From contig NZ_JAGHZZ010000014.1 of NCBI RefSeq assembly GCF_017745095.1, positions 1-64,000 of the forward strand: 64,000 bases of DNA, given 5' to 3'. Shown piece by piece: positions 1 through 15,911 of this stretch (position 1 is its first letter; each line of letters starts with the position of its first letter). Origin of the DNA: Sporocytophaga sp. Lineage in GTDB: Bacteria > Bacteroidota > Bacteroidia > Cytophagales > Cytophagaceae. The notes below the pieces were generated by a model. It was not told where the DNA came from. It was given only the letters and a program-made list of their open reading frames with translations, and did no database searches. The position numbers and the translations under genes are program-made.

Positions 1-1
1 T

Positions 2-307
2 CATTCAATCTATCCTAATAATTTACTTTACCAAGAATTTATAAAAGAATTAGAGGTAGCATTAAAGGAAGTAGATACTGGGTTCGAATTATATAATCAT
101 TCGGTGGATGATACTGTAGAGGTTAAAAATTGCTGGCATCCGATTCATATAAGAAAACCGATGTTAGAGGTTTTCAGAGGAACACAAACAGCAGAAGAAC
201 AAGATAAAATTTTTATCAAGAATGTAATGATGATTTTACCCATGATTACAGACTCGGTAACTTTTCAAAAGTTAAGAAAAGAATTTGAAAAGAAACTAAT
301 TGGTTAA
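2..307 (+). CDS. C-terminal part of a hypothetical protein, cut by the window edge
   Basis: The plus-strand frame is open from base 2 to a TAA at 305-307, so about 101 residues of the end of a gene are visible and the real start lies outside the window. A GTG at 104 could also start a 67-residue protein, but the frame upstream of it has normal coding character (PNNLLYQEFIKELE). The protein is mixed alpha/beta and polar, with no membrane segment and no motif I recognise. It converges on the Argonaute-effector operon. Confidence 0.5.
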   Translation, partial: HSIYPNNLLYQEFIKELEVALKEVDTGFELYNHSVDDTVEVKNCWHPIHIRKPMLEVFRGTQTAEEQDKIFIKNVMMILPMITDSVTFQKLRKEFEKKLIG

Positions 308-355
308 CATTTTGAAATCATTTATATCATGCAACTTGATAAAGAAACCGTTAAA

Positions 356-1240
356 TTAATATCCCCATAATGATCTAAGTCTTATCATGATCCATTCTAT
401 GAGTTTTTTCCTATTGTCAAAGACAGTCATAAGGGACGTTCCAGCAAAAGACAGAACAGAGAAAGATAAGTCAAACCACTTCTTATTGTCCTCAGAAGCA
501 TTATTGTATTTGTAGAAGAAGTAAATTGCTAAACAAACTGTAGATAGTAATAAAATATTTACTATCCACTTAGCTGTTTTTTCTGTTCTTTGTAGAAATT
601 TTCCGTGAAATGATTCTAATTTTTTAGTCACTTCAGGGTTTGATAAATCCTTTTTAAGAATAATAATATCAATAGCTTTTAATCCAATGATATTTAAAAA
701 GTCAATATTAGAAAAGGGAAACAATTTTTGATTTAAGCTTTGATATGTATTGTTAGAATGGACTTGTTTAAGATCTGATATTCCTGTTATATGAAGAAAG
801 ACTACCACAATGGAACCAATATTATCTGGACTATCATAGTTCCCATTTAAAATATTTATAAATGTTGTTCTAATTTTAGAACTTTCATCTTGTCCCAAAT
901 TGGTGGGAATTAGAAGGACTTTTTTAAGCCAAAATACTTCCAAAGAAAATTTCTTAACTGCACAAATCAGCAAGAATAAAAAAACATTATCGTAAATCCA
1001 GTTTGTTTGATTGTCAGGATTCCTTCTCTCAAAGGCTGAATAAAAGGATTTAAAGTTTAATGAATCATTATTGATTAAACTTAAGATTGTCTGTTTCTTA
1101 ATGTCTGGAACATTATTCGGAGAGTGAACTTGTTCAATTTTCAAATCATACTCAAAAAGAAATTTTACAAATTCAGAAATTTCATCCTTCACAATCAGAT
1201 CCTTTAAATAGTCTGATTTTAATTCTATTAAAGAAACCAT
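356..1240 (-). CDS. Argonaute-associated protein with two C-terminal membrane segments (putative effector)
   Basis: This 294-residue protein is encoded directly after the Argonaute gene, and its start overlaps the Argonaute stop by 13 bp, so the two are very probably co-transcribed and translationally coupled. Residues 1-220 are polar and helical with no recognised motif. Two hydrophobic segments follow (about 225-243 and 257-274), then a short basic tail (RKKLIEWIMIRLRS). The layout, a soluble sensing part with a two-helix membrane module, fits a membrane-disrupting toxin. It is known that catalytically inactive long prokaryotic Argonautes often pair with a nuclease, a sirtuin or a transmembrane effector. 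That this protein is such an effector is inferred from position and topology, not from a recognised domain. Confidence 0.7.
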   Translation of the reverse strand: MVSLIELKSDYLKDLIVKDEISEFVKFLFEYDLKIEQVHSPNNVPDIKKQTILSLINNDSLNFKSFYSAFERRNPDNQTNWIYDNVFLFLLICAVKKFSLEVFWLKKVLLIPTNLGQDESSKIRTTFINILNGNYDSPDNIGSIVVVFLHITGISDLKQVHSNNTYQSLNQKLFPFSNIDFLNIIGLKAIDIIILKKDLSNPEVTKKLESFHGKFLQRTEKTAKWIVNILLLSTVCLAIYFFYKYNNASEDNKKWFDLSFSVLSFAGTSLMTVFDNRKKLIEWIMIRLRSLWGY

Positions 1241-3471
1241 TTCTTATACTTTAAATCAGTATTAATAACTTCAGGTTGCCAACCATTTATTTTTCTTAAC
1301 CTTGATAACAGCTTGGCAATTATATCAGAATAATATATTGTTACTGGCATCTGGATGGACAAGAAACTCCTCCATGAAAGATTTGTAAAACTGTAAATTT
1401 GCTGAGTTAAGTAATTTAGATCTTGAAATGTAGATTTTTCGTTTAGCTTTATTAGAATGGGTTTGCTTAGACCTTGTTTAACTGTTTTAATATCTTTAGG
1501 TCCTTTCATCTGTAAAAGACAGTTAAAATTATCTAATATGAGATTAGTACCTCTTTCAGGAATGTATTGACCTTTTGTATTAATACCTGTTTGAAGACTG
1601 TCAAAAAGTATATAGGGATGAGCTTCAGAAATTGTCAAGAATGCATAGACAATATGATATTGAGAGAATTCTTTAATCAATTTATCCACGACAGTAGCTT
1701 CAATATCTTTAATTGGTTTGAAAATATGGAATATAATTCTCACAGTATCTCCAGGATTCCAACCATCTTTAGATGAAAGATAGTGAATTGAAGTTCTTAG
1801 ATTTTGCAGCATTTCTTCAAAGTATTCATCATAGTTTACATCTCTGCACTTATTCCCAAATAAATAACGTCCATCTGCATTAAAAAAAGTTGTAATACCA
1901 ACGATCTTTGTTTGTGTTGCTCCTACATATCTATTCTTTCTAATCATACTACTTCCAATACCAACAATAATTTCCCGGTCTATATTTTGATTCGAAGGTA
2001 ATATCCATGGTGTTCCTCCCATTTTAGCATAGATCTGGAGAGTCATGGCATTTAGCACAGAATCAAGATAATTATCAGACTTCCTTACATTCTGATTTGT
2101 AATAAACTGGACAGGAATATTTAAAGAAAGAAGATGAGCTTTAATTTGATAATAAGGATTGCTTTCAATGGAAAGAGTTTTGAATTCATTTTTCGTTTCC
2201 ACGATTGCTAAATCGAAAGGCCTTCCTAAATTATTTTTAACATACTTATTTATTGTAGACAGATAAGAGCTTATGCTATAATTTTCAACTTCATCAATAA
2301 TAAACTCTGTTTTGTGGATGTGATACTTTGTTAAAAAACCTTTGGAAAAGTAGGTAGAATTAGGAATTCCGTCTTTTAGTTTAGCCAGAAAGCTTGCGAA
2401 ACCTCCTCGATTATTTTTATGGCAAATAACTAAGATCTTTGGTTCTTTTGCTGAAAAAAATTGAGAATCGTAAGGCCCATATTCATTTAAACCTTTAAAG
2501 TCTGAATTTTTACTTGTCTTTATCGAGCTTGGATCGAAAATATAAGTTGGATTATTTAATTTATAATGGTTATCTGGAAGGATAGATGTATTTGAAACTT
2601 TAAATGTAAAGCCATCTTGATTCTGAAAATCAATCTTTGATATCAATTTTCCTGTGCTTGATATGTCATCATAATATTTCTTAGCATTAAATCTTTCTAT
2701 GTTTTTACTGCTAATTTCCTCAAATATCTTATTTGTCTTTTCTTCGCCTAATTTAAACCTCAAGTAGTTCTCAATATTATATTTGGATTTATTTATAAAC
2801 AATTCTTCCAGTGGCAGTGATATATCTCCACGGTTTGTATCAATTATTGCGTTCTTCCCATCAGTAGATTTGAAAGTGCCTATTAAAGATTCATCAGGTG
2901 CAATTATATTTTTGAGTCCGTCGATCGGAATAGAATGAATAATACTTAAATCACTTAAGTTAAATTTTTCTTTATATAGATCTAAGCAACTTCTGGTGAA
3001 GGACCATTTATAAAAAGAATTAATAACAAAAGCATGGGAACGTTTATCGTTGATGGTAATTACCCTTGTTTGAATTTCCGTTTGTTTTTTATAACCTATA
3101 ACTCCTCTTAAATTCTCAGGTAAAAGGTCATGAACAAAATCGTGTTTGCTCTGCCTTGACATAAAACTAAAAGGGTAAAATTCCAATGGAATTATTTCAG
3201 GAAAATTAGCTTTAAAACTCCTAAAAAATATATGCTTTATCAAAGAGCTTATGATTTCTTCACTTTCGTCAACCTTTAGTGTAACAACATTACCGATATT
3301 CAGATCATCCCCTTCATTTCGTGAAATATAAATGTAGTTTTGATTTTTAAAAAATGAATGAGTTTGGTTATAGTCCTTTCGCAGTTTCTGTAAAAGGCCA
3401 TCTTCATAGGGGATTCTTGAGATTTGAAATGAATCGAAATCAATTTCAATCGGAAATATATTAGTGATCAT
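1228..3471 (-). CDS. Long prokaryotic Argonaute, predicted catalytically inactive
   Basis: About 747 residues, the usual size of long pAgos of the RsAgo type. The C-terminal third shows MID and PIWI signatures. The MID 5'-phosphate pocket appears as Y440/Y441, K444, Q455 and K483 (motifs NPYYQIKAHLL, VQFI, YAKMGGTPW). PIWI starts at about 498 and ends with NLSWRSF then MPVTIYYSDIIAKLL. The DEDX slicer residues look lost: the first Asp is Gly506 (VGIGSS), the third site reads FHIFKP, and no acidic or His residue is obvious at the last site. It should therefore bind guide and target without cutting. An in-frame ATG at 3534 exists, but the reading from there runs through the terminator hairpin of the preceding gene, so the ATG at 3471 is chosen. 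The membrane-protein gene overlaps its 3' end. Most likely a guide-dependent defence sensor. Confidence 0.85.
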   Translation of the reverse strand: MITNIFPIEIDFDSFQISRIPYEDGLLQKLRKDYNQTHSFFKNQNYIYISRNEGDDLNIGNVVTLKVDESEEIISSLIKHIFFRSFKANFPEIIPLEFYPFSFMSRQSKHDFVHDLLPENLRGVIGYKKQTEIQTRVITINDKRSHAFVINSFYKWSFTRSCLDLYKEKFNLSDLSIIHSIPIDGLKNIIAPDESLIGTFKSTDGKNAIIDTNRGDISLPLEELFINKSKYNIENYLRFKLGEEKTNKIFEEISSKNIERFNAKKYYDDISSTGKLISKIDFQNQDGFTFKVSNTSILPDNHYKLNNPTYIFDPSSIKTSKNSDFKGLNEYGPYDSQFFSAKEPKILVICHKNNRGGFASFLAKLKDGIPNSTYFSKGFLTKYHIHKTEFIIDEVENYSISSYLSTINKYVKNNLGRPFDLAIVETKNEFKTLSIESNPYYQIKAHLLSLNIPVQFITNQNVRKSDNYLDSVLNAMTLQIYAKMGGTPWILPSNQNIDREIIVGIGSSMIRKNRYVGATQTKIVGITTFFNADGRYLFGNKCRDVNYDEYFEEMLQNLRTSIHYLSSKDGWNPGDTVRIIFHIFKPIKDIEATVVDKLIKEFSQYHIVYAFLTISEAHPYILFDSLQTGINTKGQYIPERGTNLILDNFNCLLQMKGPKDIKTVKQGLSKPILIKLNEKSTFQDLNYLTQQIYSFTNLSWRSFLSIQMPVTIYYSDIIAKLLSRLRKINGWQPEVINTDLKYKKWFL

Positions 3472-3495
3472 TGTGGAGAAGTTTAAATCAATCTT

Positions 3496-3524
3496 TAAAA
3501 ATATAGGAGGGTTGTGCCCTCCTA
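3496..3524 (-). terminator. Intrinsic terminator after the DUF3606 gene
   Basis: The minus strand shows an 8-bp perfect stem (TAGGAGGG / CCCTCCTA, arms 3524-3517 and 3511-3504) with loop CACAA, followed by TATTTTT. It begins 7 bases past the DUF3606 stop codon and ends before the preferred Argonaute start, so it may set Argonaute expression by read-through. Confidence 0.7.
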
Positions 3525-3530
3525 CAAGTC

Positions 3531-3710
3531 TCATTTTTTTCCTAAATGCTTTTTTACAGCAGCTACAGATGTTCCTGCTTCAACAACAGCTGTAATCAGC
3601 TCGGTTTTGGAAACACCTAATTCTTCTGCCCAAAAATTAAGTTCCCAGGCCTCATGTATATTAATCCTGGTTGCATCTTGGGGTCTTTTTTTCTTTAAAT
3701 TGTCTGGCAT
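3531..3710 (-). CDS. DUF3606 family small protein
   Basis: A 59-residue protein beginning MPDNLKKKRPQDATRINI and ending VAAVKKHLGKK. The order MPDN-K-K, then (D/R)xxRIN, then a W..(E/K).G(V)(S) helix and a final KxLGK is the signature of the DUF3606 family, which has unknown function and is common as short stand-alone genes in Bacteroidota and Proteobacteria. The TGA stop overlaps the upstream in-frame ATG of the Argonaute frame (ATGA), but the strong terminator just after it argues that the two are separate transcription units or are linked only by read-through. Confidence 0.75.
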   Translation of the reverse strand: MPDNLKKKRPQDATRINIHEAWELNFWAEELGVSKTELITAVVEAGTSVAAVKKHLGKK

Positions 3711-3897
3711 CTTTTTTTATTAGCTTGATATACAAGTCTTAAGCCAGGTGTTAAAAATAAGACAATTTGTCCTGTTGGATTTGATTTTGTTTGTAGAGTA
3801 TGTCAATTGGTCAGTTCCATGAAATACTAAAGGACATTCTATCAGCTTATCTTTGACCAAAATCTACTGTAAAGCAATGATAATTAATAGGTTTTAG

Positions 3898-4410
3898 TTA
3901 ATTTAGGTATTGTTTTATTCTCCTCGTGAATTCCGACAAATTCAGGAAGCTTTTATTGTTTTTCTTTATTACTGGGGCCTCTTCCTCCATAAATGATTCA
4001 GCAATTTCTAATACATCAGAATATTCAGGAATCACAATTGTATTAAGCTCCCCAATTATCGCATTAATCACTTCTCCAGGAAGATTTATCTTATTGTCCC
4101 TAATCATTACCTCTGCACTTCTTAGCCAGTATTCGATATTTACTCGCTTTACACTCTTCCATTTTCTCATAAGATGGTTAACTGCTTCCTTATTCTCGTC
4201 TACGTCCGGAATATAACAGTGCTTAGTATAGTAAGATCTTCTACTTGTATCTTGATTCGTAGGACAGTTATTGAAGCTAAGAATTAATGTGGAATAAACA
4301 GCATCAATTATCTCTTGATCCTCTGCCTTGCCTTCATGAGCAAGCATTCTGACTTTACATATGTAAGCTGACAGCTGACGGTTATTAGAAATAAGACTTT
4401 TAAGTTCCAT
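3898..4410 (-). CDS. Hypothetical protein
   Basis: 170 residues, mostly helical and charged, with no signal peptide or membrane segment. I recognise no family. A Cys/Tyr-rich stretch (NNCPTN, RRSYYTKHCYIPD) sits in the middle and a Lys-rich helix closes the protein. It starts about 85 bp from the divergent small gene at 4495, with a palindrome between them, so the two may share a control region. Codon use resembles the neighbouring accessory genes. Confidence 0.6.
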   Translation of the reverse strand: MELKSLISNNRQLSAYICKVRMLAHEGKAEDQEIIDAVYSTLILSFNNCPTNQDTSRRSYYTKHCYIPDVDENKEAVNHLMRKWKSVKRVNIEYWLRSAEVMIRDNKINLPGEVINAIIGELNTIVIPEYSDVLEIAESFMEEEAPVIKKNNKSFLNLSEFTRRIKQYLN

Positions 4411-4451
4411 AATTAAAAAGGTTTTGGTTGATAAAATTTACTTGGAAAAAA

Positions 4452-4490
4452 CACAGTTTGTGATATAGCTAAATATATGTAAAAACTGTG
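4452..4490. promoter_or_regulatory. Interrupted palindrome between divergent genes
   Basis: Perfect 8-bp arms CACAGTTT (4452-4459) and AAACTGTG (4483-4490) flank an inner ATATA/TATAT pair around the loop GCTAAA. It ends 4 bp before the ATG of the small plus-strand gene and lies in its leader. It could be an operator for both divergent genes or a leader hairpin. Function is inferred only from symmetry and position. Confidence 0.4.
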
Positions 4491-4494
4491 AGTA

Positions 4495-4695
4495 ATGAAA
4501 TATTTCAAAACTTATGAAAGCTTTTTTTATCCGAATAAGAAAACGAAGAAAAAGAAAAAACAAAAGGCTATACTTTCATACGAAGATAAATTGAAAAAAG
4601 AGGAGGAGGAGTATAATACATCTCAACAAATGGCATCAAGAGCAACCGATTTATTAGGCATAACTCCTCAACCTAATTCTGGTCCTCCTCAATAA
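4495..4695 (+). CDS. Small lysine-rich hypothetical protein
   Basis: 66 residues starting MKYFKTYESFF, a beginning often seen in small phage-type proteins, then a run of lysines (KKTKKKKKQK), an acidic helix and a Pro-rich tail ending SGPPQ. It is the only complete plus-strand gene in the first 19 kb and is divergent to the gene at 3898-4410. No domain is recognised. The strongly biased composition leaves room for it not being expressed. Confidence 0.4.
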   Translation: MKYFKTYESFFYPNKKTKKKKKQKAILSYEDKLKKEEEEYNTSQQMASRATDLLGITPQPNSGPPQ

Positions 4696-4732
4696 TAGCT
4701 TTACTCTGAATAGGTAAGGTTATTTAAGTAAG

Positions 4733-6226
4733 CTATGCCTCCTTACTACCATCAATAACAATGGTCTCCAATATCTTCAATAATTTAGCGAGTCCATAAG
4801 TATTCAGTCTACCATATTCTGATAAATCCATTTTAATATTACTCCTTTCTGTATTCCCGATTTTGGTTGTTAGTAACTTTTCGTAAGCTCTGCTTGCAGT
4901 GGCTGAATCTGGAATAGTTAAACTTTTAAATGATACTTCAGGTAGCCAGGCAGCTATTAAACTCTTTAATTCGTGACTTCCATTCTGATTGTAATGATAA
5001 AGATATCTATTTTCAAAAGGCTCTTTTAAATCCTTCAATCTATCAATAACCTTAAAAATTTGTGCTTCATATTTTGGGTAAATTCTACCGAGTTCTCTTA
5101 ATCTTGCTTCTGTATATTTTTTCTCATAAACTATAATTGTCCCATTGTCTCCTAAATCTTTCAATAAGCTTTTAATAAATCCATCTCGTGGATCCTTTGA
5201 ACTGACCGAAATAAAGTCTTTATGCTTTAAGCAAGATGAATGAGATGCTACTTCATATAAGCTATATTGAAATGGTATATATGTATAAGGCGAAGTTTTT
5301 TTGAATAATGGAATCGGAAATTGAAGAGTCTTAATTTGCAAGAAAAATATTGGAAAGCATATATCTCCCATATATCCTTCAATTGCTCTCTTATTAATTA
5401 CATATCTTTTCTGAACAAGGCAATCGATTTCCAACCATAGTTTCTCCGTTAATTTTACTTGATGAGGAACGTTTCCCAATTTTACCCCTTGGTCATTTAG
5501 CATATACATTTTAATTTCCCAAGATTTAACCAAATTCAAGGGCGAATCTTCTGGAAGATCTTTCCAACAATAACTTTTAAATTCACAGTTAAAGGGATTT
5601 GTGCAAAATATTCCAGGAGATACATTAGGAATTTTATTTGAATTTAAAACCTTATGTGAAGCCATTAAGATCCTTTTTACCAAAGGCAGTGCATGTCTTG
5701 CTTTATTAGAAAGGTTTACTATTTTAAACAATTTAGATATATTCAAAACTTCTTCAAGGACATATTTCTTGTCTATGTGAATTAGGAAGCAATGCAGTTT
5801 TAGATGAGGATATTTTGTGTGTATTATTTGTGATTGAAAAGCCAAGTCTAAAATATGCTCTGCTACACATTTTGTTGAAAGTTTTATTTCATACAACTCC
5901 CAAACAGTATCTGACTTAATAATTAGAATGTCGGAAAAACACTTCTCACTATTATGCTCAAAGCAAGCATTGTATATTACCTTTATTCCTTTTTGGATTC
6001 TATACTCGGTATTTTGCACCAAGTCTCCTTGGCATTCTTCTTTGACATTAAATCCATTATCAAATAACTGTCTTGCTAAGTTTTTAACAAGCTCCGACCT
6101 ATGTAAAATAGTATCAGAATATGCACCCTGATACTTATACTCAGGGTGATAATATTCTAAATATGCAGCCTTACTACATCTTCTTGTTTTAAGAAAAACA
6201 TTCTTAGTTATTTCCTTCCTATTCAT
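4733..6226 (-). CDS. Cas4-like Fe-S nuclease fused to a degenerate DUF2779 domain
   Basis: 497 residues. The N-terminal half carries a PD-(D/E)XK nuclease core (D99 in CFSDIL, E113 and K115 in YEIKLSTK). Four cysteines are arranged as in Cas4/AddB 4Fe-4S nucleases: C17 near the start and C208, C214, C220 after the core (FCTNPFNCEFKSYCW). The C-terminal half matches DUF2779, a DnaQ-like exonuclease domain, by IPFQYS (317-322), VYEKKYTEARL, GSHELKSL and LPEVSFKSL. The exonuclease acidic residues are missing: the family DFET reads QIKT (297-300) and the final YCxLDT reads YGRLNT (472-476). So the Cas4-like part appears intact and the DnaQ part dead. Its start overlaps the transposase stop by 4 bp (ATGA), implying coupled expression. 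Substrate unknown. Confidence 0.75.
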   Translation of the reverse strand: MNRKEITKNVFLKTRRCSKAAYLEYYHPEYKYQGAYSDTILHRSELVKNLARQLFDNGFNVKEECQGDLVQNTEYRIQKGIKVIYNACFEHNSEKCFSDILIIKSDTVWELYEIKLSTKCVAEHILDLAFQSQIIHTKYPHLKLHCFLIHIDKKYVLEEVLNISKLFKIVNLSNKARHALPLVKRILMASHKVLNSNKIPNVSPGIFCTNPFNCEFKSYCWKDLPEDSPLNLVKSWEIKMYMLNDQGVKLGNVPHQVKLTEKLWLEIDCLVQKRYVINKRAIEGYMGDICFPIFFLQIKTLQFPIPLFKKTSPYTYIPFQYSLYEVASHSSCLKHKDFISVSSKDPRDGFIKSLLKDLGDNGTIIVYEKKYTEARLRELGRIYPKYEAQIFKVIDRLKDLKEPFENRYLYHYNQNGSHELKSLIAAWLPEVSFKSLTIPDSATASRAYEKLLTTKIGNTERSNIKMDLSEYGRLNTYGLAKLLKILETIVIDGSKEA

Positions 6227-7218
6227 GCTGCTTCCTCATTACTTAATAATTGACGGTCTCTTTCAAATAATGGAGGTAATGAGTTTAGTAATTTGTCAAA
6301 TTTTTCCTCCACAGATAAACCACAGTTGGTATACCTGAAACAATGTTCGTGTGCATACAATGATGAATAGGGTTCTGTAATTTGTCTATATGTACCTTTA
6401 ATATTGGGTTTAATATGCCCAAAAAATCCTTCAATTCGGTTAGTGGTTATATTACCCTTGCTATATTCATGTTTAGAGTGGTTAACGACAAAGTGATTAT
6501 ATCCAAGACTTTTCAAGTTAGAATAACCTCTCCATTCATCTGTGTATATCGTCGTGCCAAGTTCAACATTTTCCATTATAGTTGATAACAATGTTTCTTC
6601 ATCTCTATCAGTCAGCATAAACATTCTACATCTTAGGGTTCCTCTTTCTAACAAACCTAAGAATGGGGTAATGGCATCAGAACCGAATCCTCTCTTTTTC
6701 TTGATGTGTCTCCCAAGTCCTTTGGTTCCAGTAGGTATAGCTACCTCATCTATTTCTACTTCGCCTTTAAACAGGTCTTTTGACTGACTCAAGCCCATTA
6801 ACTCTCTCACCACTCTTAATATCCGTACGCCCGTTTGTTGACTTAATTTATACTGTTGGCAGATTTTGTTTCCAGAGAATCCTGAATTATGAAATATCTT
6901 ATCAATAGCAATTCTAAATACTATTCGTAAATTTAAGTGTGTCCTTTCAAATACAGTATTGCTCATCACAGCCACTTGTTTCTTACATTTGTTGCATTGA
7001 TATTTCGATCGACCAGATATTTTTTTGTAATGTGTAAGTATATCTGCTTGACATCTTATACAACCTCCAGTCTCTTTGATAGCCCTGGCCATAAAAATTG
7101 CCTCTAAACATTTCTCATGTGTTGAGTATTTTTCTGTTAATAGTTCATAAGGACTTAAAGATGTTTTCTTAATTTTATTTGTATTCATTGTTATTACATG
7201 ATTTAGAAATTTTTTCAA
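6223..7218 (-). CDS. IS1595 family (ISXO2-like) transposase
   Basis: 331 residues. An N-terminal zinc ribbon is visible (C53-x2-C56 and C75-x2-C78), then a helical DNA-binding part, then the DDE-type catalytic core: D157 in VEIDEVAIP, D227 in IYTDEWRGY, and N260/E263 in TNRIEGFFGHIKP, spaced as in IS1595/ISXO2 transposases. The core looks complete, so the enzyme may be active. The start may be Met11 (7188), since the first ten residues are poorly typical. The gene continues by a 4-bp overlap into the nuclease gene and is preceded by a strong hairpin at 7231-7266. Confidence 0.85.
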   Translation of the reverse strand: MKKFLNHVITMNTNKIKKTSLSPYELLTEKYSTHEKCLEAIFMARAIKETGGCIRCQADILTHYKKISGRSKYQCNKCKKQVAVMSNTVFERTHLNLRIVFRIAIDKIFHNSGFSGNKICQQYKLSQQTGVRILRVVRELMGLSQSKDLFKGEVEIDEVAIPTGTKGLGRHIKKKRGFGSDAITPFLGLLERGTLRCRMFMLTDRDEETLLSTIMENVELGTTIYTDEWRGYSNLKSLGYNHFVVNHSKHEYSKGNITTNRIEGFFGHIKPNIKGTYRQITEPYSSLYAHEHCFRYTNCGLSVEEKFDKLLNSLPPLFERDRQLLSNEEAA

Positions 7219-7230
7219 GAAATTTTAAAC

Positions 7231-7266
7231 CCTTTGTCTACTTATCAGTTAATAGGTACACAAAGG
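7231..7266. other. Long imperfect hairpin upstream of the transposase
   Basis: Arms 7231-7245 and 7252-7266 pair over 15 positions with one C-C mismatch and one G-T wobble, around the loop CAGTTA. It begins 13 bp before the upstream-most transposase ATG. It could be a transposon-end or subterminal structure, or a 5' UTR hairpin that limits transposase translation. No T-tract follows on either strand, so it is not a simple terminator. Confidence 0.5.
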
Positions 7267-7291
7267 CTAAGGGCCAATGTTTAAACAAAAA

Positions 7292-7389
7292 AGTCCCTGC
7301 CTGTATGCAAATACAGGATAAATGAGCTGAACACTTAAAGGGATTCTAAAAATTCAGGCGTAATTGGTCTCAACAATTACGCTTTTTTT
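7292..7389 (+). ncRNA. Candidate structured small RNA (three-way junction plus terminator)
   Basis: On the plus strand three helices can form a junction. P1 is AGTCCCT (7292-7298) with AGGGATT (7339-7345). P2 is CCTGTAT/ATACAGG capped by a GCAA tetraloop (7300-7317). P3 is TAAATG/CACTTA (7319-7337, one mismatch). A separate terminator hairpin with a T7 tract follows at 7358-7389. There is no open reading frame of note. The 3' strand of P1 could alternatively pair with TCCCTTT downstream of the terminator (about 7392-7398). I do not recognise the family; promoter and transcript are unproven. Confidence 0.35.
7358..7389 (+). terminator. Intrinsic terminator, possibly bidirectional
   Basis: Perfect 9-bp stem GCGTAATTG / CAATTACGC (7358-7366, 7374-7382) with a 7-nt loop, followed by seven T on the plus strand. 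On the minus strand it is followed by CTGAATTTTT, so it may also end transcription of the gene at 7430-7921. Confidence 0.75.
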
Positions 7390-7429
7390 ATTCCCTTTAG
7401 AATAATCTATTTAATGTCTTCCTTATCTA

Positions 7430-7921
7430 TTAAAGCTTATAAATAACACCTCCTTTTCTCTCTGTTCTTTCCATTTTTTCAATTGTTCCATTTTTGGCCA
7501 GAGCACTCGCAGATACATTTAACCACTGCTTTAATGTTTGGTCTTTTACCCTACGCCTAACAAAGTCTAAGTCTAAATTTTCAACTTCTGAAAAGACCTC
7601 GGCAATTGTAGCTTCACCACCGAGCTTTTTGAGTCCCCAAAGAAATAAATCATAGCCATTAGCACTCTTTAATTTCTCAATGTCATTATGCTTGCTCTTT
7701 TTCTCTACTAAAAGTTTGGGAGAATGAGAAGAAGATTGAAGCATTGTCTCATCGTCTTCATGACTTATTTCAGTCGGATCAAGCATTTCATATGCTTCTT
7801 TGATTAGTTTTATTGCTGAAAGGAGATACTGATTTCTCTTTTCAAGTGAGCTGAGTGCTTCCTTTAAATGCCTTCGAGCTTCTTTATTCCCATGTTGAGG
7901 ATCTTTAAGAATGTTGTTCAT
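7430..7921 (-). CDS. Hypothetical protein with a possible C-terminal winged helix
   Basis: 163 residues. The N-terminal 50 residues form a charged helix likely to be coiled coil (KEALSSLEKRNQYLLSAIKLIKEAYEML), followed by a Ser/Lys-rich linker. Residues from about 88 on (YDLFLWGLKKLGGEATIAEVFSEV and GTIEKMERTERKGGVIYKL) resemble a small winged-helix fold by pattern only. No signal peptide or membrane segment. It ends about 40 bp before a bidirectional hairpin, so it is probably a one-gene unit. Function unknown. Confidence 0.6.
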   Translation of the reverse strand: MNNILKDPQHGNKEARRHLKEALSSLEKRNQYLLSAIKLIKEAYEMLDPTEISHEDDETMLQSSSHSPKLLVEKKSKHNDIEKLKSANGYDLFLWGLKKLGGEATIAEVFSEVENLDLDFVRRRVKDQTLKQWLNVSASALAKNGTIEKMERTERKGGVIYKL

Positions 7922-8317
7922 ATAGATTTTCTATTGTTGAAGAACAACTATTACAAAGAGGAATTGTTTGGGGTGTATATTGAAAAAGTTATATATTAAA
8001 ATATTCTAAAGTTTTGGCTATATACTTAATTAACAGATTATTATACATGTATTTAAAAATATCAAATATTCAAATTATTATAAATTTACCGACACTAAAC
8101 TATGGTAACTAATTCTAATACAACGTTTTTGACAACTTACCTGAGATTGTAATAATGAATTTTCTATATGGAAGATTAATTTGGAGAATATTATTACAAA
8201 GGCCTTCCTTAATGAAATGATATAAAAAGAATTATAAAAATAGATTTAGGTAATGTTATACATGCCTAAAGTGATATAAAAAATGTTTAAGCATCCATAT
8301 CAATATTATATATAGAT
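7922..8317. other. AT-rich gap without a recognisable gene
   Basis: About 400 bp of very AT-rich DNA between two minus-strand genes. I see no open frame of useful length, no strong hairpin with a T-tract and no repeat shared with the rest of the window. It presumably holds the promoter of the gene at 7430-7921. Confidence 0.5.
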
Positions 8318-8623
8318 TTATGCTTTAAGTAGAGAATTGACATATATTATATACAATGAAAGGACTGAAGCACAGATGCGAAGAATTGTCATCATAATAT
8401 TTACAAACAGATTTTCTTTCTTTTCATAAGAACTATAGAAAAAATATATTGAGGTAAGAACTGACAGGGATATGATGGATAAGAAAATAACAAAATATTC
8501 ATCCCGGTCAGCATTCTGCCTATTAACAATCCAATGAAGCGTTACAAGTGCTCCTAGTCCAATGAATCCAGTAACAAACTTTATAAATTCTTTAAATTTA
8601 TTTCTGAGATCATATAATAACAT
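8318..8623 (-). CDS. Small membrane protein, three predicted helices
   Basis: 101 residues with hydrophobic segments at about 14-32 (FVTGFIGLGALVTLHWIV), 43-62 (YFVIFLSIISLSVLTSIYFF) and 73-96. No family is recognised. A repeat of the attC-like set lies just upstream (8669-8729), and the gene has the one-gene, one-orientation pattern of its neighbours. Confidence 0.55.
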   Translation of the reverse strand: MLLYDLRNKFKEFIKFVTGFIGLGALVTLHWIVNRQNADRDEYFVIFLSIISLSVLTSIYFFYSSYEKKENLFVNIMMTILRICASVLSLYIIYVNSLLKA

Positions 8624-12878: not shown

Positions 12879-15800
12879 TTAATATTTTATTACTGTTTTT
12901 GTTCTGGAAACGTTTCCGTCGTTACACTTCAACACATAGAATCCAGGAGTAAGTTCTGTAGAAATCGAATAACTTGCACCTGATACAAGGTTTTTGTCGG
13001 CATAAACCACGGATCCAACAGAATTTATCAACTCAACAGAGTAGGTTTTTCCTGCTGCAAAATCTGCCCTGAAAGTAAGTTCACTGCTAAATGGATTAGG
13101 ATAAGCTGCTATTCCGTTTTCTGCAATTCCAGCTCCTTCTAATGGCATATCAAGGTTATACATACGTGTATTGACCGTTGTACATGTTCCTGCAATAGCT
13201 GTTGGATTGTTGTCGGTATTTGATGGACTCGATCCTCTGTAGCCACTGTTTAATGGAAGTGTTGGCGTTGGAGCAATTCTGTCATTAATTGTTTCTACTG
13301 TGCCAGTTTCATCAAATGGATAATACGCTACCAGACCTGCTTCACTTCCATATAAAGCCCTGTTCATGTTATTCTGAATCTGTGTCTGTGTTCTCGCAGC
13401 ATTCCAAATACGAAGTTCTTTAATGGAACCGTTAAATGCATTATATACAGTAGGCAGCTGGTTAGCATCATAATATCCTCCTATATAGGTAACATTCACT
13501 CCATTGCCTGTAGGACCAAAGTCTCTCGTATTAAGTTCGGTTGCAAGTAGGACACCATCCATGTACATTTTAGTATCAGTTGAGTTTTTTACAACTGCTA
13601 TATGATGGCACTTATTATCCCTTAAATTTGTAGATATACCTACTATTGAATTCATTGATCTGAAAGATACATAATCAGGACAGGTAGAGCAGGTTGCCCT
13701 GTTGGTCCAGAATTCTGCAGAACCAGTAGGTCCATCACCATAATTTCCCAGCAGGTACTCGGCCTGTCCACCATAGGTTGCAAGCGGAGCAGATGGGTTT
13801 GATTTGATAATAATCTCATAAGTAAAGTCTCCAAGGCCCAATCCCATTTTCGAATGCGCAGGAATTATCGCAACATCATCTGTTCCATCAAACGAAAGAC
13901 CATTCGGAGAAAGTGGCTTTGGATAAGCATCGCAAGTTGTTGCATTAGCCACAGCATCAAGCACAGTGATAGACTTTGTAAGAGGTACGCAGACATCTGA
14001 AGTAAATTCATTTAAAGAGATTGTTCTTGCACCTGGAGTTGTACCATTGAAATTGATAGTAATTGAATTAGTTGCAGAACCAGAAACAACACTGGTATTT
14101 GGAGGTAATGTCCAAGTATATGTTGATCCCGTATTAGCAGTTATAGCAAAATTAACATTGGTCTGATATGGACATACAGATGTAGGACCTGTGATCGAAT
14201 TAACTGGATTTGCACCTACACCAACCGCATACCAAGCTTTTGCTACCTGCAATGCTTCATTCGAACATTGTCCATAAAGATCTTCAGCCGCAAGTATTGT
14301 AAACTGACGAGCCTGAGCATAGTTTGTATTTGGTGTAAAATGATAAACTAGAGCTCTGTAAGCAATTTTAGCTGCAACATCACGTGTGATAGAAGATACT
14401 GAAAATGCGTTACCTAAATCGTTTGTTCCTGAGCCCCCGTTTGCCAGCAGATAAAACCAGTAGTTTGCAACACCGCTGTTTCCATGCACTCCGCAATAGT
14501 CATTTGAAGCGTCTGGTACGCAGCTTGAAGTATTTTGCCAGTAGGTACCGCCATATGTATCTGGCTGGTTTCTTGCATTAGGATTTGACATTGAGCGCAA
14601 CATTCCCGAAGCCCAGACCTCTTCGCCCATGGTATAGTTTCCTGTCCCTTTTGCATAAAATTCAAAATCAGTACCAAGAATATCACTCCATGCTTCATTC
14701 AGTGCCCCAGACTCTCCTTCATATAAAAGTCCCGCAGTGTTCTCTGTAACACCATGTGTGAATTCATGACCAATTACGTCCATTGAAGTAACAGAACCAA
14801 CAGTTTGTGTTCCTGAGAATCCGTCTCCTCCATCACCAAAAACCATTACACCGCCACCAAGCCATGCTGCATTGTCCGGATCAAGGTTAACTCCATCCAT
14901 TGTGTTGAAATGAGCCACACCCAAGATTGACGTATTCTGATTGTCGAATCCATTACGGCCGTGATTACACTTGTAGTAATCATAAATTTTCCCGAGTCCG
15001 TAATGTATTTGAAAACCTGTTTTATGATGAAGATCGCTTGGCCAGGTTGTACCAGTTGGTTTTCCATAATAATAAGTCTGTCCAACATTGTCCAAATAAA
15101 TGGTTTCAATTATCTGAGTGCTGCTTCCGCACGTATTGCGGCAGTCATCATAAAGTACATCTATTCCCGACAATCCTGTTGAAGGTGGAACCACATTGTC
15201 ATTGATTGTTTTTGAACCTTCATATCTGGTCTGTACTGTTGGATTGCCACACTTATGTTGTCTGCTGATTTTTTTAACTATTGCACCAGTCTTTGCATTT
15301 ACATATACATAATAACGACCTCTTGCCGGTGCTTTTCCAAAAACATCCACCTTCCACGCAAGCACATGTTGCTGAGCAGCATCAAGTGTAATGATAAGTA
15401 TCGGTGCCTCAATTTTAAATCTTGCATCTGTAAATTCAGATGTTGATCCGATAGCAGAAAGTGAAAGTGTTTTTGCTTGAGCAGAAGTTGTAACCGGGGT
15501 AACATCCGTGAGAGTAATATTTTTTGTAAATACAGATGCAGACTTTACTAAACCACTTTTAACATGTGTTTTTACCACAGCATTTTCTACATCAACTCCG
15601 GAAATATTCTGGATGTAACTATTGTGAGTAAAGCCCTTGGTATCTGTTTCTGTTTTCAGAAGTTTGAGCGGAGAATTTGATGAACCTAACAGGTTTACCT
15701 TACTGTTGAAATTTGTCACAAAAGCCGTAGATGTCACAAGTGAGGTAGTTTTAAATACCATCACTTGCTGGCTAGAGCCTGGAACAATGTTTACAGTATA

Positions 15801-15911
15801 GCTGGAATAAACTGGATTGTTATACTGGGCCTGAAGATCAGAGGTGGCCATCCCTCCTGAAAATGCCATAATAATCGCAATGGCTTTCCTAAAAAGTAAT
15901 TTTCTGTTCAT
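12879..15911 (-). CDS. Secreted M4 (thermolysin-like) metalloprotease with T9SS sorting domain
   Basis: 1010 residues. A signal peptide (residues 1-28) and an FTP/PepSY-type propeptide (about 35-215) precede the M4 catalytic domain. The zinc site HEFTH is at 382-386 with the third ligand E406 in GALNEAWSD, and the catalytic His lies in CGVHGNSGVANYW. After the peptidase come a PKD-like module (about 575-655), a LamG/concanavalin-like module (about 670-865) and a C-terminal T9SS type A sorting domain (AAYPNPFSSELTF ... GFYVLKC ... KTVIKY). It should cross the outer membrane through the type IX system and act on external protein. A well-formed terminator follows. A TAGCTTTG box about 220 bp upstream is a possible promoter. 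Confidence 0.93.
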   Translation of the reverse strand: MNRKLLFRKAIAIIMAFSGGMATSDLQAQYNNPVYSSYTVNIVPGSSQQVMVFKTTSLVTSTAFVTNFNSKVNLLGSSNSPLKLLKTETDTKGFTHNSYIQNISGVDVENAVVKTHVKSGLVKSASVFTKNITLTDVTPVTTSAQAKTLSLSAIGSTSEFTDARFKIEAPILIITLDAAQQHVLAWKVDVFGKAPARGRYYVYVNAKTGAIVKKISRQHKCGNPTVQTRYEGSKTINDNVVPPSTGLSGIDVLYDDCRNTCGSSTQIIETIYLDNVGQTYYYGKPTGTTWPSDLHHKTGFQIHYGLGKIYDYYKCNHGRNGFDNQNTSILGVAHFNTMDGVNLDPDNAAWLGGGVMVFGDGGDGFSGTQTVGSVTSMDVIGHEFTHGVTENTAGLLYEGESGALNEAWSDILGTDFEFYAKGTGNYTMGEEVWASGMLRSMSNPNARNQPDTYGGTYWQNTSSCVPDASNDYCGVHGNSGVANYWFYLLANGGSGTNDLGNAFSVSSITRDVAAKIAYRALVYHFTPNTNYAQARQFTILAAEDLYGQCSNEALQVAKAWYAVGVGANPVNSITGPTSVCPYQTNVNFAITANTGSTYTWTLPPNTSVVSGSATNSITINFNGTTPGARTISLNEFTSDVCVPLTKSITVLDAVANATTCDAYPKPLSPNGLSFDGTDDVAIIPAHSKMGLGLGDFTYEIIIKSNPSAPLATYGGQAEYLLGNYGDGPTGSAEFWTNRATCSTCPDYVSFRSMNSIVGISTNLRDNKCHHIAVVKNSTDTKMYMDGVLLATELNTRDFGPTGNGVNVTYIGGYYDANQLPTVYNAFNGSIKELRIWNAARTQTQIQNNMNRALYGSEAGLVAYYPFDETGTVETINDRIAPTPTLPLNSGYRGSSPSNTDNNPTAIAGTCTTVNTRMYNLDMPLEGAGIAENGIAAYPNPFSSELTFRADFAAGKTYSVELINSVGSVVYADKNLVSGASYSISTELTPGFYVLKCNDGNVSRTKTVIKY

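Follow-up and report, generated by a model that had tools for sequence, protein, structure and literature searches.

A Cas4-DnaQ-like nuclease gene lies directly behind the transposase gene in large IS1595-type transposons of Bacteroidota

Typical members of the IS1595 family (ISXO2-like; IS1016/Merlin type) are ~0.7-3 kb long and lack a nuclease. The elements described here share with them a transposase with the PF12762/NF033547 domain and its catalytic residues, short terminal inverted repeats (TIRs) starting with G, and 8-bp A/T-rich target-site duplications (TSDs), but they measure 11-24 kb and bear a gene for a constant Cas4-DnaQ nuclease, another for a coiled-coil protein, and cargo of a defence-like type. 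Tn7 and Tn7-like transposons (TnsA + TnsB) are likewise large and combine a DDE transposase with a PD-(D/E)XK nuclease, and PMC8649781 ascribes to Tn7-like transposons a defence-rich cargo, as is seen in these elements. In contrast to the Tn7-like arrangement, the transposase here is of the IS1595 type, and the nuclease is not TnsA but a Cas4-like protein with Fe-S cysteines and a DnaQ part. The duplication made by Tn7 is 5 bp, compared with 8 bp here, and no target-site regulator was identified in these elements. Cas4 with Cas1-Cas2 in CRISPR adaptation, and casposons, offer another parallel, that of a Cas4-fold nuclease beside an integrase; the recombinase here is the DDE transposase, and no Cas1 was present among the proteins scanned, which cover part of the open reading frames. 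A single association of IS1595 with a casposon has been reported, and there the IS1595 element parasitises the casposon from within (PMC4046053). PMC3985635 assigns DUF2779 to the 3'-5' exonuclease clade and mentions its fusion to DUF83. DUF2779 or COG-type Cas4-DnaQ fusions have the same domain order as our nuclease, but those elsewhere had no IS1595 neighbour where examined, and those linked to the transposons branch apart as a clade of their own. We found no description of such elements in the open-licence papers searched. The movement of defence islands is incompletely understood, and beyond the Tn7-like elements few transposons are known that have exact ends and carry defence genes.

The window, a 64,000-nucleotide stretch of a Sporocytophaga sp. 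genome, was initially annotated as containing an IS1595 transposase gene that overlaps a PD-(D/E)XK Fe-S nuclease gene by 4 bp. Both reading frames are present as listed (Table 1), and the overlap was borne out: the minus-strand junction reads ...GCAGCATGAATAGG..., in which the ATG of the nuclease gene and the TGA of the transposase gene have ATGA in common. For the transposase, the start codon given at 7218 is TTG, and translation more likely begins at the ATG ten codons downstream, at 7188. The family assignment also held, with matches to PF12762 (2.2e-32) and NF033547 (1.8e-37) that both exceed the curated cut-offs. Pfam and NCBIfam assign the protein to IS1595 only, and it does not qualify as an rve-type TnsB. 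The N-terminal zinc ribbon PF12760 scored 16.5 bits against a cut-off of 25.4; its Cys pairs are present and conserved in all five elements described below. In the window genome the transposase and nuclease genes are each single copy, with no second copy of either.

Table 1. Features of the transposon in the window and on contig C44 of the same genome
Feature	Coordinates	Strand	Evidence
Right-hand part of large IS1595-type transposon	1..8341	.	TIR + TSD across two contigs; synteny break 8342
Protein associated with prokaryotic Argonaute (pAgo), C-terminal membrane helices, cargo	356..1240	-	PADLOC Aga_Unknown 4e-34; overlaps pAgo gene
Long pAgo, class II / long-B, 768 aa, cargo	1228..3534	-	PADLOC pAgo_II 1e-244; Piwi 1e-18; NF052569
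Unknown 170-aa protein, cargo	3898..4410	-	No family above cut-off
Small Lys-rich ORF, 66 aa, MKYFKTYESF...; cargo or unknown	4495..4695	+	Sequence; ends 37 bp from nuclease stop
Cas4-like (PD-(D/E)XK, four Cys) + DnaQ-like DUF2779 nuclease, 497 aa	4733..6226	-	PF11074; alignments; model
IS1595-family DDE transposase, 321 aa from ATG	6223..7188	-	PF12762, NF033547; ORF open to TTG at 7218
Module gene 1, 163 aa, N-terminal coiled coil + C-terminal winged helix	7430..7921	-	Homologues; fold
Right terminal inverted repeat GTCAATTCTCTACTTAAAGC (read inward)	8322..8341	-	Repeat match; synteny break
Target-site duplication ATATATTA	8342..8349	.	Identical to 8 bp outside left end on C44
Left terminal repeat GTCAATTCTCCACTTTAGGC	L142 7340-7359 (contig C44)		17/20 vs right repeat, 20-bp repeats

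The same order of transposase and nuclease genes was found in two other Sporocytophaga genomes, G002 and G003 (loci L003/L009 and L004/L010), and these genomes were used to define the ends of the window element. Synteny with contig C4 of G002 breaks at window position 8342, which was found independently of the repeat position, and the best match of the G003 repeat GGCAATTCCCCACTTTAGCC in the whole 64-kb window is the right repeat, exactly at the synteny breakpoint. A search of the window sequence alone did not find the left end. It was reached via the left flank of the G002 element, which led to contig C44, where ATATATTA precedes GTCAATTCTCCACTTTAGGC. The element covers C44:7359-1 and C5:1-8341 of the same genome, a length of no less than 15.7 kb, to which the gap between the contigs has to be added. 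Because the comparison with G002 at the left flank is inexact, the window strain having 1.2 kb of extra flank, the assignment of this element rests on its TIR and TSD, a pair with a chance expectation of 6e-4. The true ends, with their matching TSD, lie 1.1 kb upstream and >12 kb downstream of the gene pair. When ungapped TIRs were sought up to 1.5 kb from the two genes, none appeared, because the ends are farther away.

The element in G003 is a 12,424-bp insertion relative to the sister genome G001, which holds the empty site; its 20-bp repeats are perfect (20/20) and flanked by the duplication TAAAGATA (chance expectation: 8e-9). The G002 element spans 17,935 bp, with repeats matching at 17/20 positions and the duplication CTAAATTA (chance expectation: 3e-3), and its empty site is on contig C17 of the window genome (G000:C17). 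A class-wide sample, one of several samples by rank of a few hundred genomes each, yielded two further pairs in G935 and G1071, two genomes of one genus in another family. The G935 element (24,248 bp; repeats 16/20; duplication CAATTTAT; chance expectation: 0.03) sits between two same-strand pieces resembling one ATPase gene. These flanks (L184 14291-15451 and L186 23-691) appear to be an AAA-type ATPase gene split by the insertion. In G1071 the element is 10,892 bp long, with repeats matching at 17/20 positions and the duplication TTAAAAAA (chance expectation: 6e-4); its repeat GGCACCTATCCACTTTAGCC is clearly related to the Sporocytophaga repeat of G003, indicating that the TIRs are related across families.

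All five elements thus have IS1595-type TIRs (16-20 of 20 positions, starting with G(G/T)) and exact A/T-rich 8-bp TSDs, of the kind that IS1595 elements produce (PMC12561309). Among simple IS1595 relatives, clear TIR/TSD pairs were seen in two cases only (L102 and L084), with unlike sequences. The five insertions establish an element with definite ends, an 8-bp stagger and a constant module, and the empty sites in sister genomes establish movement for two of them, G002 and G003. At 10.9-24.2 kb and with many cargo genes, they exceed an insertion sequence in size and content, and we therefore file them as large transposons with an IS1595-type transposase.

The recurrence of the pair between shared terminal repeats indicates that its two genes move together, as the initial annotation had supposed, and the arrangement goes beyond chance since it was found again in four other elements. 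The rest of that interpretation, a small insertion sequence with one passenger nuclease and with ends near 4733 and 7218, did not stand. Passenger genes have been described in IS1595 elements (Siguier et al. 2009, cited in PMC12561309), but no repeats lie near our pair, and in this element as in the four others the ends are distant and bear a TSD. We give this reading next to no credence: the TIR/TSD positions, which place both ends outside the pair region, rule it out. Nor is the nuclease a passenger; it is the constant neighbour of the transposase, and the true passengers are the defence-like genes in other parts of the element, which vary.

The identity of the nuclease as a PD-(D/E)XK Fe-S protein of the Cas4 type was confirmed. 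It matches PF11074 (DUF2779) at 2e-31 and no TnsA family in Pfam. Its Cas4-like N-terminal domain is weak by sequence (TIGR03491 6e-4; Cas4 models 2e-3) and clear by fold. The structure model of the window copy has a pLDDT of 90.6. Residues 1-234 of the model match the Cas4 structure 7mi5 (Z 14.0, rmsd 4.1, 195 aligned), and residues 290-497 match the DnaQ-like proofreading domain of B-family polymerases (Z 14-16). The profile of the nuclease found no match among the sequences of solved structures; Foldseek matches were Cas4 (SSO0001; 4ic1) and the Argonaute-associated Cas4 ACE1.

ACE1 was the best solved-structure match, and a pAgo gene lies 1.2 kb from the nuclease gene, which could mean that the Cas4-like protein is an ACE1-like Argonaute partner placed beside the transposase by chance. 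However, among the open reading frames read and scanned, a pAgo occurs in the window element only, so that the constant pAgo linkage of the ACE1 type is missing from the set of five; moreover, the window pAgo has its own overlapping membrane partner and the nuclease carries a DnaQ-like half as well. We consider an Argonaute partnership highly improbable.

The two active sites of the nuclease are unevenly preserved. The window copy keeps the PD-(D/E)XK core (D99, E-I-K) and the Fe-S cysteines C17/C208/C214/C220; its DEDDh residues have been replaced, DFET by QIKT and the last D by N, and it does not qualify as an active DEDDh exonuclease. DFET and the last D are kept in the nucleases of G002, G935 and G1071, and DFET also in that of G003. 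The G002 protein is without the ExK of PD-(D/E)XK (NVV instead), and the G003 gene is frameshifted in what is a metagenome-assembled genome (MAG). In the alignment of five, both sites are kept in G935 and G1071 only, and neither nuclease activity is preserved throughout the set.

The nuclease gene stands directly behind the transposase gene, in the same order, in every element, with an overlap of 1-4 bp in two and a distance of up to 80 bp in the others. Phylogenetically, the five transposases form one clade (support 100/99; tree of 27 sequences), as do the five nucleases (support 98/92; tree of 46 sequences). Since each protein forms one supported clade, the association is old and has been kept across families, demonstrating a single origin. 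Among the loci examined in the class, order and phylum samples, the other DUF2779 relatives had no IS1595 neighbour. A GTDB contig scan gave no match with a one-protein query, and a profile found distant DUF2779 proteins, none with IS1595. No match was found in viral contigs. Plasmids contained both IS1595 and DUF2779 proteins, distant ones only, and the three DUF2779 neighbourhoods read there were without IS1595.

We conclude that the pair forms the core of a Bacteroidota family of IS1595-type transposons, 11-24 kb in size, whose cargo varies and is rich in defence-like genes; in these the nuclease probably works with the transposase. The IS1595/Merlin-type DDE transposase recognises the 20-bp TIRs and inserts with an 8-bp stagger, as is evident from the ends and duplications and, in two cases, from empty sites. 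The co-encoded nuclease, usually translationally coupled or adjacent, would partner it by acting on element ends or donor DNA, where it may cut or trim the non-transferred strand or a flap; such help can be likened to that of TnsA for TnsB or of Cas4 for Cas1-Cas2. For the small coiled-coil protein we propose DNA binding, to element ends or to targets, or a regulatory role. The nuclease would most likely be an accessory factor of transposition that belongs to the core, in a loose parallel to TnsA beside TnsB. We infer its participation, and the step involved, from its fixed place behind the transposase, the overlap or near-contact of the genes, the single clade and the lack of exchange with cargo; the DEDDh loss in the window copy, the ExK loss in G002 and the frameshift in G003 weaken the case. 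A role needing one active site, or a partly structural role, would fit. Simple IS1595 elements move without a nuclease, which counts against such participation. A stronger proposal is that the transposase cannot move large defence islands unless it has a dedicated Cas4-DnaQ nuclease and a coiled-coil partner that binds DNA; this hitherto undescribed family would then be a second, independent case of the two-protein arrangement of DDE transposase and nuclease known from Tn7. The proposal is tentative, and we hold it to be somewhat short of probable.

Variation of the active sites among copies would also suit a nuclease that stays outside the transposition reaction and serves as a resident anti-invader or addiction function against competing DNA, phage or rival elements. 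Defence-like genes abound in the cargo of the elements, and outside them DUF2779 proteins occur in defence-like plasmid neighbourhoods (ATPases, WYL, PLD). Against this, the nuclease never swaps place with cargo, follows the transposase in five of five elements and forms its own clade, and we regard such a function as unlikely.

The same losses could instead mark the module as a decaying remnant, with relic transposition genes and cargo that is now fixed: each genome has one copy, the G003 gene is frameshifted and catalytic residues are lost in two nucleases. Yet the catalytic D, D, N/E and K of the transposase are conserved and its reading frames intact in all five elements, the G003 repeats still match at 20/20 positions, and both active sites survive in the nucleases of G935 and G1071. 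Decay is an improbable explanation.

The elements provide exact ends, empty sites, a three-gene core and cargo in which a long-B Argonaute system is included. If, as we prefer to think, the nuclease works with the transposase, they offer an example, open to direct testing, in which a small IS-type transposase gained a processing nuclease and grew from ~1 kb to >20 kb, and in which a Cas4 fold serves a DDE transposase. The third gene (gene 1) is part of the module. It has homologues at the same place, upstream of the transposase gene, in G002 and G003, and its winged helix is supported by an AlphaFold model and Foldseek winged-helix matches; the product is likely a DNA-binding accessory factor. 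G935 and G1071 also carry a coiled-coil gene upstream of the transposase gene, for which homology with the Sporocytophaga gene was not detectable.

As far as family matches tell, cargo differs among the five elements around the constant core. In the window element the long-B pAgo and its membrane partner resemble BPAM systems (PMC10620215), the partner being BPAM-like; among the open reading frames read and scanned in the other four elements there was no pAgo. Further cargo of the window element comprises Abi_alpha, DUF4209/PDC-S39 and an XRE regulator. G002 carries a Ser/Thr kinase, a KAP NTPase (PDC-S20), GmrSD and DUF4238; G003 a broken KAP NTPase and IS21 copies; G935 Abi_alpha, a Lit-like protease, HNH and a UvrD-type helicase; and G1071 Abi_alpha and HNH. 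Abi_alpha (PF14337) thus occurs in three of the five elements and in two host families (L142 805-1605, L184 16265-17050 and L187 18789-19439, all on the minus strand). XRE-type regulators with a C-terminal coil were seen in four (L009 8510-8971, L142 3556-3906, L185 3000-3386 and L188 3224-3598); this regulator, near the nuclease gene in three elements, is a possible fourth core gene.

Within the G003 element (L132 2750-9835), two IS21-type istA/istB pairs apparently break the KAP-type NTPase gene, a relative of which is intact in the G002 element. Small Lys-rich proteins with an MKY..TY..F start are encoded 3' of the nuclease gene in the window element (Table 1) and in G003 (L004 1086-1376, minus strand), in opposite orientations in the two elements. 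A secreted metalloprotease-type protein encoded at window positions 12879-15911 is single there and a tandem duplicate in G002 (L133), where the copies are 85-87% identical.
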